In this document: positions 31,070-35,045 of the stretch, piece after piece
Layout: each line of letters opens with the position of its first letter
Numbering within the stretch: the stretch's first letter is position 1
Source of the DNA: Desulfuromonas sp. TF
GTDB taxonomy: Bacteria; Desulfobacterota; Desulfuromonadia; Desulfuromonadales; ATBO01
Assembly: GCF_000472285.1 (NCBI RefSeq)
Contig: NZ_KI421422.1
Coordinates: 63,737 to 105,575 of the forward strand
Reading direction: 5' to 3'
DNA: 41,839 nucleotides
The notes under the pieces: model-generated
Told to the model about the DNA's origin: nothing
The model's database searches: none
The model's input: only the letters and a program-made list of their open reading frames with translations
Translations under genes and position numbers: made by a program

Positions 31070-31495
31070 TCACTTGCATAATGGCAGAATGGATTCAATG
31101 CATTGAACCAGTGTCCGCTCATCTTTGGTTTGGCATTCCCAAACGATCCCTACGTTCCAGCCAAGGTCCTCAAGCTGTTGCCTGACGACGGCATCCCGTT
31201 TCACGTTCGCCTGAAATTTCGCTTCCCAAAACTCCCGCCGCGACTTTGGAGAATATGCGAACTTGCATCCCTCATGACGATGCCAGAAGCACCCATGAAC
31301 AAAAATGGCAGTCCAATGCCTCGGAAGCACAATATCTGGACTGCCAGGAAGCTTATTTACATGAAGTCTGAAGCGAAAACCTGCCCGATGCAAAAAAGAT
31401 CGCACTAGTTTTTCAGGCGATGTATCCTTGGAGCGGATTCTCGACATGTTCCAACTGCGACGTTCTTTAGTGATTCGATCAACCACAGTCGCCAA
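31070..31495 (-). CDS. vsr: Very-short-patch repair endonuclease
   Basis: Vsr nicks next to T:G mismatches left by deamination of 5-methylcytosine. The product is 141 aa with family motifs MSRIRSKDTSPE, LPGSPDIVLP (catalytic Asp54), the zinc/active region FVHGCFWHRH with GC, and the C-terminal VWECQ. It overlaps the end of the cytosine methyltransferase gene by 17 bases, the usual dcm-vsr pairing. The start is TTG 31495 or GTG 31486; neither site is ideal. The presence of Vsr implies that the adjacent enzyme makes 5-methylcytosine. Confidence 0.93.
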   Translation of the reverse strand: MATVVDRITKERRSWNMSRIRSKDTSPEKLVRSFLHRAGFRFRLHVNKLPGSPDIVLPRHWTAIFVHGCFWHRHEGCKFAYSPKSRREFWEAKFQANVKRDAVVRQQLEDLGWNVGIVWECQTKDERTLVQCIESILPLCK

Positions 31496-33029
31496 AAGCC
31501 TCTATCAGCATTTTCTTTACAATCAATGCTATCTTGTTCGCCAACAATGGCGGAACCGCATTACCTACTTGGATATACTGCTCTGTCCTGTTGCCGCAAA
31601 AAAAGTAATTATCTGGAAAAGTCTGAATTCTTGCTGCTTCTCTGACCGTCAGGCTTCTACATTGCGAGGGGTCAGGGTGGATAAAATAATGTCCATCCTT
31701 TGATATATGGCAGGTCACTGTAGTCGCAGGTTTTCCAGTCACCTGGACTCTAAACCGGTCATCAAAATCACCGGAGTCTCTGTTTTTGTGTGCTGGCTTT
31801 AAAAGCTCAGGAAACTCTTCCATTCTTGGAGACCTTCCCTTTGCCTTGGCAAAACTGGATGCATATAAATATCGGTGAAGATCGGACTCCATGTGCGTTC
31901 TTGCTGAATGGTTGAAAACTCCTTTAATACGTTCATCTTCATACCAGACCCTCAGGTGTTCAGCTTTTATTGAGGATGGCGGCTTATCCACAAAGTTACC
32001 ACCCATATCACTTGATGGAACCCTCAGACCACCTAAGGCATCCCGGATATTCTCCATCGTCCAGCGATCCGACAAGCGCTCTATCTCTTGTCTCAATTTG
32101 TTTACTGGGAACCTTTTAACAGCCTGCATCCAGTCACTCTCATTATATTTACCCCTGGAAATTCCACTCCGTAATTCTGGAAGAGTAAGAATCTTATAAA
32201 GACTGATTCTTTTTTCTTCAGTTAAAACGGAGGGCCTGACACCTTTTTGGCAAATGTCTTCTCTGACCCCGAGAAGAATAACCCGATGCCTGGTCTGAGG
32301 AATGCCATACTTTTCAGACTCAATTACAAAATCCTTGTCCACAAATTCCGGCTCATCATAAGAATGGGGGGCTATAGCAAGTGAGAAGATTCGGTATCTG
32401 CAACCATGGCCATTTAAAGGGGCTCGAAGATCTTGCAGGATCTGCTTGAAAACTGCACTGCCGTTAACCTTGGACGAAAGCAGTCCCTTAACGTTTTCCA
32501 TGACAAAAATTGCCGGATTGTGGACACCTACAATCCGCAAATATTCCTGGTACAGATAATGGCGGTCGTCCTTTTCCGGAACATAATCTTTTTCGCCCTT
32601 ATTTCTGGAACGACCAACGACGGAATAGGCCTGGCAGGGAGGCCCTCCAATAAGTACCCAATTCTCATTACCCCGAAGAGCCATACGGACTCGTACATCA
32701 AGAGCCGTATTGAAATCATCGTCATTACGAAGAGTCTCATTCCAAGCTTCATTTTCTGCAGTTCGAGCCTGCTCTGAAAATTTTTTTAGTGAAAAAAGAG
32801 CCTCAGGGGGTCTACCCTCTTTTAAAAATTGAAAATATTCTTCCGGGATTTTATCATAGGGGAATTTCCGTACAAAACTTCTGAGTCGAAGAGTACGATG
32901 CGCAAAAGTTTCTTTTTCAACTGAAAGGCCGATCCGGAAGAAAGGATTCCCTTCGCGCCATCCAACTTGGCTGAAGCCTTCACCCAGCCCGCCCGGGCCA
33001 GCAAATAAATCGATTATTGGTATCGCCAT
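31479..33029 (-). CDS. DNA (cytosine-5) methyltransferase
   Basis: The product is 516 aa. All key C5-methylase motifs are present in order: DLFAGPGGLGEGF (motif I, 7-19), GGPPCQAYS with catalytic Cys132 (IV), VMENVKGLL (VI, about 177-184), GIPQTRHRVI (VIII), EAARIQTFPD (IX) and QVGNAVPP (X). The region between VIII and IX is about 200 residues, a large target-recognition domain, so the recognition site may be unusual. It is the first gene of the defence operon and is visibly richer in A and T than the housekeeping genes, which suggests transfer. The ribosome-binding site is poor. Confidence 0.93.
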   Translation of the reverse strand: MAIPIIDLFAGPGGLGEGFSQVGWREGNPFFRIGLSVEKETFAHRTLRLRSFVRKFPYDKIPEEYFQFLKEGRPPEALFSLKKFSEQARTAENEAWNETLRNDDDFNTALDVRVRMALRGNENWVLIGGPPCQAYSVVGRSRNKGEKDYVPEKDDRHYLYQEYLRIVGVHNPAIFVMENVKGLLSSKVNGSAVFKQILQDLRAPLNGHGCRYRIFSLAIAPHSYDEPEFVDKDFVIESEKYGIPQTRHRVILLGVREDICQKGVRPSVLTEEKRISLYKILTLPELRSGISRGKYNESDWMQAVKRFPVNKLRQEIERLSDRWTMENIRDALGGLRVPSSDMGGNFVDKPPSSIKAEHLRVWYEDERIKGVFNHSARTHMESDLHRYLYASSFAKAKGRSPRMEEFPELLKPAHKNRDSGDFDDRFRVQVTGKPATTVTCHISKDGHYFIHPDPSQCRSLTVREAARIQTFPDNYFFCGNRTEQYIQVGNAVPPLLANKIALIVKKMLIEAFGDCG

Positions 33030-33629: not shown

Positions 33630-33906
33630 TCACACATACGCCGCGCCGTCCTCCTCCACCTTGAACCCGATCGACTTCTTACCCTTCTCCTCCGGCCGCA
33701 TCATCTTCCGGATGGCGTCGAAGAGGGTGTGGATGGCCTCGTCATGCTTCCCTACCCGCGCTCCAGCTCGGCGAACTTGCTCGCCAAACTCACGGTTGGA
33801 TGAGGCCAACTCCCGCATCTGCACAAAGGCTCGCATGATGGCGATGTTCACCTGCACGGCGCGCTCGCTATTGAGGACGCTGGAAAGCCGCGGCCTATTG
33901 GGGTCG
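33630..33906 (-). pseudogene. C-terminal fragment of an ORF6N-domain gene
   Basis: The frame reads SSVLNSERAVQVNIAIMRAF, then a coiled stretch KHDEAIHTLFDAIRKMM, then IGFKVEEDGAAYV and a stop. This is the second half of ORF6N-domain proteins (phage and plasmid DNA-binding proteins related to KilA-N context). The N-terminal half is absent. The 3' flank (about 33574-33637) is repeated at 33937-34023 after the end of the interrupted ORF6N gene, which shows a duplication of the gene end. Confidence 0.65.
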
Positions 33907-34040
33907 GACCAAACCATGTGTCCGTTTTCAAACAACAAAGCGCGATTTTTAACCACTCCACAGCGCTTAAAGCCCCCATTTTGCCCCCAAAACCAGCAAA
34001 GAAGAGTCACAGATACGCCGCGCCTTCCGGCGCCATACCT

Positions 34041-34150
34041 AAGGTCCCGAGTCTCGGGTCCCTGGTCCCGAGTCCGTTAAACTTCTGGTCCCGAGTCTTG
34101 AGTCATTGGCTTTTCGACCCTGGACCTTTGACCCGGGACCCAGGACCGAG
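34041..34150. repeat. Palindromic array of 7-bp units, left of the four-helix gene
   Basis: Units such as GGTCCCGA, GTCTCGG and GTCCCTG run into a spacer and then into complementary units (GACCCTG, GACCCGG, GACCCAGGACC), so the whole stretch can fold on itself. The same order of parts is found at 34564-34680 in the same orientation. Confidence 0.8.
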
Positions 34151-34154
34151 AAGT

Positions 34155-34544
34155 TTATTTGAACTTTTGCCCTTTATAATCCGACACCTTCAGATAATTC
34201 ATCAGCCCGCCAAGCATTCGGCCGATCTGGACTGTCAGCGCACTGACGCGGTCAAACTTCTCCTGATTGAGATACCCTTGATCGAGCGCAACATAGAGCT
34301 GAGCCCTGACTTCCCCGCACGACCCCTTGGCCAATGCCAGGAATTGGCGGAACTCACGGTCACCGCCCCGCTCGAACCCTTCGGCGACATTCGAGACGAC
34401 CGACACAGCTGCCCGACGGATCTGATCCCTCAATCCGAAATCACGAGCGAAATCCCCATCCCTGCAGCAGGCGTAGATCTCTCCGGCCATCTCCCGCGCC
34501 CTCTGCCAGACATCCAACTCCTCGAAATGCTTTACCCCTTTCAC
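34155..34544 (-). CDS. Four-helix-bundle protein (S23/IVP type)
   Basis: The product is 129 aa, starting at GTG 34544 with AGGAGG 6 bases upstream. The sequence (HFEELDVWQRA, then LRDQIRRAAVSVVSNVAEG, then REFRQFLALAKGSCGEVRAQL) is typical of the four-helix-bundle family first seen as the protein encoded in 23S rRNA intervening sequences and related in fold to the Avd protein of diversity-generating retroelements. No reverse transcriptase or rRNA gene is nearby. Its stop lies 4 bases from one 7-bp array and its start 19 bases from the other. The unit sits inside an ORF6N gene. Function unknown. Confidence 0.88.
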   Translation of the reverse strand: MKGVKHFEELDVWQRAREMAGEIYACCRDGDFARDFGLRDQIRRAAVSVVSNVAEGFERGGDREFRQFLALAKGSCGEVRAQLYVALDQGYLNQEKFDRVSALTVQIGRMLGGLMNYLKVSDYKGQKFK

Positions 34545-34563
34545 AATCCCCCTCCTTGTATAA

Positions 34564-34680
34564 AGTCCCGAGTCCCTGGTCTCGGGTCCCGAGTCTAGAG
34601 TCTCTAATTCCGAATCCCGAGTTCCTGGTCTATTTCTTGGGCTTTTAACTCGGGACCTTAGACCCGAGACCCGGGACCGA
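34564..34680. repeat. Palindromic array of 7-bp units, right of the four-helix gene
   Basis: GTCCCGA, GTCCCTG, GTCTCGG, GTCCCGA, GTCTAGA follow each other, then a spacer containing GGGCTTTT, then ACTCGGGACC, GACCCGAG, ACCCGGGACC. It is a direct counterpart of 34041-34150; both contain GGCTTTT before the descending arm and end in GGACCGA. Confidence 0.8.
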
Positions 34681-34681
34681 T

Positions 34682-34982
34682 GTGTTCACCTGCACAGCTC
34701 GCGGACTGTGCAGCACGCTGGAGAGCATGGCAACGCCCTGCTCGGAAAAGGCGTAGGGCGGAGTGCGCCTGCCACCCCACTGACTTGAGGTTCCAGATTG
34801 GAACCTCAAGTCACTAAATTCTTGATTCGTCAGCTGAAACATGAAGTCGGCAGGAAACCTGTCGAGATTTTGGTTTCGACGCCGTAGAGCTCTGCCAGGT
34901 CTTCATCGAGAATCACCTTGTCGCCACGAATCAGGCGAATGGATCGTTCGATGCGGAGCAGATCAATTTTCACTTTTTCCAT
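34682..34982 (-). pseudogene. N-terminal part of an ORF6N gene, frameshifted and interrupted
   Basis: ATG 34982 with AGGAGGGG begins MEKVKIDLLRIERSIRLIRG, then [17 protein letters not shown], the ORF6N N-terminus. A frameshift with loss of about 10 codons follows. The frame resumes [15 protein letters not shown], then [19 protein letters not shown], then [13 protein letters not shown], where it stops at the 7-bp array. After the four-helix gene and second array the sequence PEGAAYL and a stop (about 34010-34036) look like the lost C-terminal end. So the gene is broken twice. Confidence 0.7.
34781..34813. repeat. Perfect 15-bp inverted repeat within ORF6N coding sequence
   Basis: TGACTTGAGGTTCCA (34781-34795) and TGGAACCTCAAGTCA (34799-34813) are exact complements around GAT. 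On the minus strand it encodes [11 protein letters not shown] of the ORF6N domain. A second ORF6N-coding copy at 35015-35045 is also palindromic with different inner arms. Confidence 0.9.
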
Positions 34983-35014
34983 ATTCCCCTCCTTTTCCGC
35001 GGTAACAGTAGGTG

Positions 35015-35045
35015 AACTTGAGGTCACAAATTGTGACTTCAAGTT
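35015..35045. repeat. 15-bp inverted repeat in a second ORF6N fragment
   Basis: AACTTGAGGTCACAA (35015-35029) and TTGTGACTTCAAGTT (35031-35045) pair around one base with a single G-T mismatch. The minus strand reads NLKSQFVTSSS, the same ORF6N segment as at 34781-34813. The rest of this fragment is lost. Confidence 0.85.

Follow-up and report, generated by a model that had tools for sequence, protein, structure and literature searches.

The sequence analysed here (the window) is a 41,839-nt stretch of contig NZ_KI421422.1 of Desulfuromonas sp. TF, and all coordinates below refer to it. Two inverted repeats that an earlier note had described from the letters alone are indeed present, at 34781-34813 and 35015-35045 (Table 1). 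The former is formed by TGACTTGAGGTTCCA and TGGAACCTCAAGTCA, 15-nt arms that are complementary throughout and separated by a 3-nt spacer; the latter reads AACTTGAGGTCACAA A TTGTGACTTCAAGTT, with arms complementary, by reading, at 14 of 15 positions (13 of 14 if only positions 2-15, counted from the centre, are considered). As that note had claimed, the two share their outer arms and differ in their inner arms in a matched fashion. When odd centres were scanned across the window, no other site reached 13 of 14 pairs, and the best palindrome in each of 40 dinucleotide shuffles of the window had 10-12 pairs; the palindromes and the matched changes of their arms are confirmed as real and far above chance.

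The repeats had been assigned to the same codons of two ORF6N genes. Alignment with two intact genes from the same order shows instead that a single, broken ORF6N gene on the minus strand holds both, the first in codons of the domain and the second in the leader, with 32 nt between it and the start codon (ATG at 34982). The ORF6N profile of Pfam (PF10543) matches two pieces of this frameshifted gene at 46.3 and 30.8 bits, above the gathering cut-off of 27.8. Compared with the intact relatives, 25 nt that include recognition-helix codons are missing, the reading frame is shifted, and similarity stops near 34683; the window copy should be inactive because the helix codons are lost. The start codon is preceded by a Shine-Dalgarno-like GGAGGGG (GGAGGG in both intact relatives), and same-order relatives carry leader palindromes at a place similar to that of the leader repeat in the window.

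Table 1. Features of the broken ORF6N gene and its palindromes in the window
Feature	Position	Strand	Evidence
Palindrome of inner type TTCCA inside the gene, at the ORF6N domain codons for (D)LRFQSGTSS(Q)	34781..34813	-	sequence, alignment
Leader palindrome, inner type TCACA on the minus strand, upstream of the ORF6N start	35015..35045	.	sequence, alignment, same-order leaders
Broken ORF6N gene, start 34982, 25-nt loss, similarity ends ~34683	34683..34982	-	PF10543, alignment
Junction of the 25-nt deletion, recognition-helix codons removed	34867..34872	-	alignment
Shine-Dalgarno-like sequence ahead of the ORF6N start	34986..34994	-	sequence, two relatives

A gene for an S23 (23S rRNA-intervening-sequence) protein, identified by Pfam, lies at 34155-34544 on the minus strand, inside a region spanning 34040-34680, and is flanked by GGTCCCGAGTC-type repeats in both orientations. 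The break in ORF6N similarity near 34683 coincides with the edge of this region, and beyond S23, at about 33650-34010, a second ORF6N-like C-terminal piece was recognized by eye and from repeats D3/D4. The S23 region looks like a repeat-flanked insert or a recombined junction. A Pfam match also identifies a C-5 cytosine DNA methyltransferase gene at 31479-33029 on the minus strand, near the ORF6N/S23 cluster.

For a family-wide comparison, ORF6N domains were gathered from relatives, from named genomes of many phyla and from viral contigs, and 157 of 197 matches were kept after removal of partial domains, duplicates and sequences containing N. In 126 of these 157 distinct full domains, the palindrome is stronger than in all 100 synonymous recodings of the same protein sequence (mean score 11.8 for the real genes versus 5.6 for the recoded ones), and the palindromes that beat their recodings are found nearly always at codons 49-66; the other 31 genes fall short of beating every recoding. 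Covariation between the arms was assessed in the 125 of 157 genes with an LxxQxxTS-type motif. At position 4 from the centre, 123 of the 125 are complementary compared to 46.8 expected (A-T in 56, C-G in 45 and G-C in 22), and an excess is also seen at positions 5 (110 complementary, 57.5 expected), 8 (99, 47.0 expected), 13 (113, 70.8 expected) and 7 (101, 72.1 expected, with 22 A-C exceptions). Positions 2, 3 and 6 are nearly invariant, and covariation is absent at position 1 (88 of 125 versus 87.1 expected). The palindrome at domain codons 53-63 is under selection at the DNA level, as a specific site within the gene's own coding region. The earlier note had proposed just such selection with compensatory change inside a protein motif and had named a broad alignment of ORF6N genes as the place where covariation could fail; that alignment speaks for covariation.

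In the merged set, 9 or more of the 11 arm positions pair at the best centre in 354 of 368 ORF6N domains, a figure that is a maximum over about 100 centres and for which synonymous recoding is the proper control; in 46 of the 368, the inner pair is broken or the palindrome is weak. In 335 genes (e.g., LKSQFVTSS), the first base of a codon forms the centre, and in 19 (e.g., LVTNCDRF) the second does. Palindromic repeats of the RPE kind, when found in coding genes, are extra inserts relative to homologues that lack them. An insert of this kind was considered and rejected: the palindromic segment is aligned domain sequence in 24 of 24 members of one ORF6N alignment, and the equivalent stretch of residues is kept in genes whose palindrome is not strong (e.g., L043 and L108).

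The inner bases of the palindrome track domain residues 25, 26 and 29, which are encoded some 25-35 codons upstream and lie on the predicted recognition helix. Among the genes whose inner type is clear (131 of 157), residues 29 and 26, both outside the palindrome, share 1.35 and 1.05 bits of information with that type, values comparable to those of residues 59 (1.38 bits) and 56 (1.01 bits) encoded by the palindrome itself; the next non-encoded columns are residue 30 (0.45 bits) and residue 25 (0.31 bits). At least five inner types occur, and for bases 5 and 4 they follow a simple rule: Q29 goes with CA, E29 with CG, K29 with TC, R29 with GC, or with CC when residue 26 is I, and L29 combined with N26 goes with TG.

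This rule was fixed on the 131 genes before 186 further domains were examined. The latter, part of a longer list of matches, remained from 211 after removal of 16 short, 4 duplicate and 5 already used in training; 21 of the 186 had no clear inner type, and 1 of the 165 with a clear type received no prediction. The code was correct for 161 of the remaining 164 genes, compared to a mean of 57.7 and a maximum of 75 for label shuffles; the two sets overlap in phyla (Bacteroidota and the phylum of the window), such that the held-out genes are new without being phylogenetically remote. Overall, 310 of 318 genes agree with the code, the denominator being 368 minus 46 unclear and 4 without a prediction. 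By residue, Q29 is accompanied by A at base 4 in 157 of 162 genes, E29 by G in 88 of 91, R29 by C in 55 of 56 and K29 by C in 37 of 37 (92 of 93 for K and R together), and K25 by G at base 7 in 214 of 215; R25 is looser, with A in 49 genes and G in 17. The textbook contacts between side chains and bases are Gln with A, Glu with C, and Lys or Arg with G. On one strand or the other, these are the contacts that the correlations predict, with Q facing A, E facing C, and K or R facing G. In a comparison that ignores kinship, residues 64-69, located just past the palindrome and perhaps a wing, correlate with its outer bases 8-12.

In the AlphaFold model of one ORF6N protein (L081; pLDDT 85.8), helices 30-37 and 41-50, with block means of pLDDT of 94-97, follow each other in the order of a helix-turn-helix, and domain residues 25, 26 and 29 (42, 43 and 46 of L081) fall in the second of them. 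The residues encoded by the palindrome, 53-63 of the domain or 70-80 of L081, make up the last part of the following helix and a loop modelled with less certainty (block mean 73). A sequence search of PDB with the ORF6N alignment gave no match to a solved relative. Fold comparison gave weak matches (Z 4-7, at most 6.8) to Dachshund/SKI, Mbp1, RacA/MerR-like and ParA domains, several of which are of the winged or MerR-like helix-turn-helix kind.

Kinship among the genes was addressed by comparing disjoint pairs with at least 70% identity outside the helix and the palindrome. Among 120 such pairs of unlike palindrome type, the code is kept by both members in 110 and residue 29 is unchanged in 5; of 132 control pairs in which both members have the same type, 8 differ at residue 29. 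These comparisons were used in place of a tree test: on a poorly supported tree built without the helix and palindrome columns, there are 91 changes of residue 29 and 97 changes of type. Its supported independent contrasts agree with the code or show no difference, and none runs against it (4 of 4 agree for Q, 4.8 of 6 for E, 1 of 1 for K and 2.9 of 3 for R), but their number is too small to reach significance.

Palindromes also occur ahead of ORF6N genes. Within 250 nt upstream, a leader palindrome is found in 46 of 362 genes, compared to 5 of 347 in a stretch of similar length further up. The clear in-gene site violates the code in 8 of the 318 genes; a leader palindrome accompanies six of them and in every case matches the type predicted from the helix, a fit equalled in 20 of 20,000 random draws (in the other two, L297 and L333, a leader palindrome was not found). 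At genes whose in-gene site fits, 36 leader sites divide into 14 of the gene's own type and 22 of another, and the latter may serve other ORF6N proteins or be relics. Some genes of the same order have an in-gene palindrome mismatched to their own helix. The window gene, with TCACA in the leader and TTCCA in the gene, has the same two types as an intact gene of the same order (L184/L022), whose helix, with Q29, fits the leader type; therefore, the two types in the window probably represent one leader self site and one in-gene site of a different type. At two other loci, L281 and L242, three leader palindromes of mixed type precede one ORF6N gene, at about -45 to -230 from the domain, as if several ORF6N proteins acted on one leader.

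The reading best supported by these data is that ORF6N genes contain, within their coding sequence, a palindrome to which the encoded protein binds, with autoregulation as the most likely purpose. Given a palindrome that is held by selection on the DNA, covaries with the recognition helix and can be predicted for unseen genes, we infer with high confidence that the ORF6N protein binds the site inside its gene, presumably as a dimer. In the proposed mechanism, the binding site would lie at domain codons 53-63, and sometimes in the leader as well, and two copies of the predicted helix-turn-helix domain would occupy the two arms, with recognition-helix residues 25, 26 and 29 reading bases 7, 5 and 4 from the centre. 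That the purpose of the palindrome is autoregulation appears probable: the bound protein would most likely limit transcription of its own gene, at a leader site by acting at the promoter. For the in-gene site, the corresponding action would be to block the elongating polymerase, and this roadblock, suggested by analogy, is a weaker proposition than autoregulation as such. Since site and reader occupy a stretch of about 300 nt, they would travel and change specificity jointly, and such joint inheritance would suit a horizontally moving gene.

Perfect or near-perfect inverted repeats around a centre of 1-3 nt could also be kept for a single-strand fold, an mRNA hairpin or a DNA cruciform, serving, for example, control of translation or decay, and compensatory change by itself would suit such a stem. 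The arm mismatches at positions 4-12 (35 G-T, 85 A-C and 112 others), however, do not show the tolerance of G-U that would be seen on a transcript, and a stem fails to predict which inner pair accompanies residues 25, 26 and 29. Selection for a hairpin or cruciform, one of the two interpretations that the earlier note had offered, thus appears very unlikely. Another possibility is coevolution within the protein, with residues 56 and 59 touching 26 and 29 and the palindrome being secondary, and the inner type indeed correlates with residues 56 and 59 much as it does with 26 and 29. Yet, where residue 56 is an unchanged serine, the codon used for it inside the palindrome differs with residue 29: 153 of 156 such genes with Q29 have TCA, and 74 of 77 with E29 have TCG. 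Protein contacts are ruled out as the cause of this pattern, because the amino acid is identical. Furthermore, genes with the palindrome in the other codon phase obey the same base code (8 of 9 for Q and 7 of 8 for E; the two R genes do not fit on the left arm, and their right arms fit by reading), and the six code-breaking genes with leaders of the predicted type are also at odds with contacts inside the protein. We consider such coevolution exceedingly improbable as the primary cause.

The other interpretation in the earlier note was that of a recombination site, at which segment swaps would spread inner types between ORF6N genes. The inner type does differ between close relatives, and several same-order genes combine a misfit in-gene type with a fitting leader, as would be seen after a past swap. 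However, the inner type covaries almost completely with the helix codons, some 80 nt upstream, and free exchange would break this link; that inner bases follow helix residues is predicted by a protein-binding site and not by a swap site. Exchange as the reason for the palindromes is accordingly improbable, and swapping between genes may be a source of new types, given the in-gene palindromes that misfit their own helix. The palindromes could, finally, be bound by a regulator other than the protein of the gene that carries them, as the sites of other type (8 of 318 in genes, 22 of 36 in leaders at fitting genes) might suggest. An unrelated protein, however, would not track the helix of the host gene across phyla and phages, and adjacent genes of unlike type each follow their own helix: among 17 loci with at least two ORF6N domains, six have differing clear sites, each fitting its helix (of the other 11, two are of a single type, one, L183, has a code-breaking site, and in eight a site is unclear or unpredicted). 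A foreign regulator is therefore a very improbable general explanation, and for the sites of other type, cross-binding between ORF6N paralogues is likely.

Binding by the gene's own product would not be without parallel, given that autoregulatory sites inside genes are already known, for example for C.Kpn2I and its close relatives. C.Kpn2I, the controller of the Kpn2I restriction-modification system, has its binding site inside its own coding region and blocks the elongating polymerase, and its authors noted that promoter-independent autoregulation suits horizontal transfer (PMC6237814). The likeness to the ORF6N proposal, in which binding is predicted from sequence, is that the regulator's site lies within its own gene; the differences are that C.Kpn2I is of the XRE type and belongs to one small clade, that its motif is found at the start of the ORF or directly ahead of it, and that the accessible text of that report describes neither a site in the codons of the DNA-binding domain nor a helix-to-site code (PMC6237814). 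The ORF6N arrangement, in contrast, is family-wide and extends across phyla and phages. Lac repressor is autoregulated by a roadblock at O3, which resembles the mechanism proposed for ORF6N in that a bound repressor obstructs its own gene, but it is a single system, and a site in the codons of its DNA-binding domain is not mentioned in the accessible text (PMC3711431). RGG motifs are encoded by the RNA G-quadruplexes that they bind, so that there, as proposed for ORF6N, the sequence encoding part of a binding module is its target; as far as the accessible text goes, that target is RNA and is set by codon composition, whereas for ORF6N it would be a sequence-specific DNA palindrome, with the predicted reader helix elsewhere in the domain (PMC11789052).

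In literature on ORF6N and on KilA-N/Bro-N palindromes that was mainly open and seen in part, with subscription journals mostly outside its scope, the in-gene site is undescribed, and the same literature yielded no precedent for a family-wide self site that is fixed in position within the codons of a DNA-binding domain and comes with a readable code. To our knowledge, few binding sites have been described for these common regulators of phages and bacteria. With a site that can be read from the gene, and a short residue-to-base code to predict it from the protein, the targets of many uncharacterised ORF6N proteins become testable at once. The family also constitutes a large natural data set in which a DNA-binding protein and its inferred site change together in one stretch of DNA, and its types are a source of orthogonal regulators for engineering.

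The window gene belongs to Pfam family ORF6N (PF10543), and its sister families Bro-N (PF02498) and KilA-N (PF04383) have in-gene palindromes as well. All 50 recodings are beaten at 16 of 30 Bro-N loci of Bacteroidota and at 14 of 23 KilA-N loci (L512-L534), in tests that took, for each locus, the longest frame at one set position, which may be the wrong frame near contig ends. L442 has no frame, and L522, scored as a success among the 14, is a 103-aa frame that is probably not a KilA-N gene. The KilA-N palindromes differ in sequence from those of ORF6N, an example being TTTTAAACCCCTCGAATTCGAGGGGTTTAAAA in codons FKPLEFEGF of L524. The Rha family (PF09669) gave seven matches in 148 genomes, two of them above the cut-off, and all seven overlap ORF6N places.

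In dinD of E. coli K-12 (L453:1261-2085), TGACCATTTCGAGGAGATCCTCGATATGGTCA is found at codons 58-69, with a palindrome score of 12.2; the maximum in 1000 recodings is 10.2, and none reaches the real value. This gene offers a concrete laboratory test of the idea. Among 53 DinD-like genes kept from 65 aligned matches, 49 carry an even-centred palindrome in which 10 or more of 13 positions pair, and those of other bacteria carry versions with different inner arms. The variable bases 4-7 share information with helix residues 35-38 and 41 (1.11 bits for base 5 and residue 35), and also with residues encoded by the palindrome and with residues 28 and 29 outside the helix (0.91 bits for base 4 and residue 29). 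In 49 related sequences, with kinship ignored, this correlation of helix and site is a lead, not a code, and the tests on Bro-N, DinD and KilA-N are altogether rougher than those on ORF6N. It is conceivable, if rather doubtful, that throughout the KilA-N/Bro-N/ORF6N group the binding site of a protein is encoded within its own domain codons and that competition among co-resident genes drives new, mutually blind specificities, in a system of self-limitation and mutual exclusion among mobile genes. A resident protein would then silence an incoming copy of the same type, whatever its promoter, with reader and site inherited together.

One site type was scanned for further targets. Across 195 relatives, RGGTCACAANTTGTGACCY occurs at 10 places in 9 genomes, compared to 1 place for the reversed-pattern control. 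Four of the 10 lie within ORF6N domains and four near and upstream of them; of the other two, one (L186) has a weak ORF6N match about 330 nt away, and one (L189) lies next to a transposase frame of the IS3-like kind. Because 8 of the 10 places sit at ORF6N domains, there is no sign of a wide regulon for this site type in these relatives. In the viral contigs, 48 stretches matched the same type of scan, with ORF6N genes containing the match in L233 and L239 and lying near it in L219 and L230. The remaining viral matches were set aside as background, being mostly outside long frames, some with terminator-like A/T tracts and many from near-identical phages. On the phage contigs L192-L238, several phage genes, among them one that starts MATNVLDAVLAQYE, are preceded at about 30-95 nt by copies of GGTCACAANTTGTGACC; these copies are mostly away from ORF6N, and some have flanking A/T tracts like those of two-way terminators.
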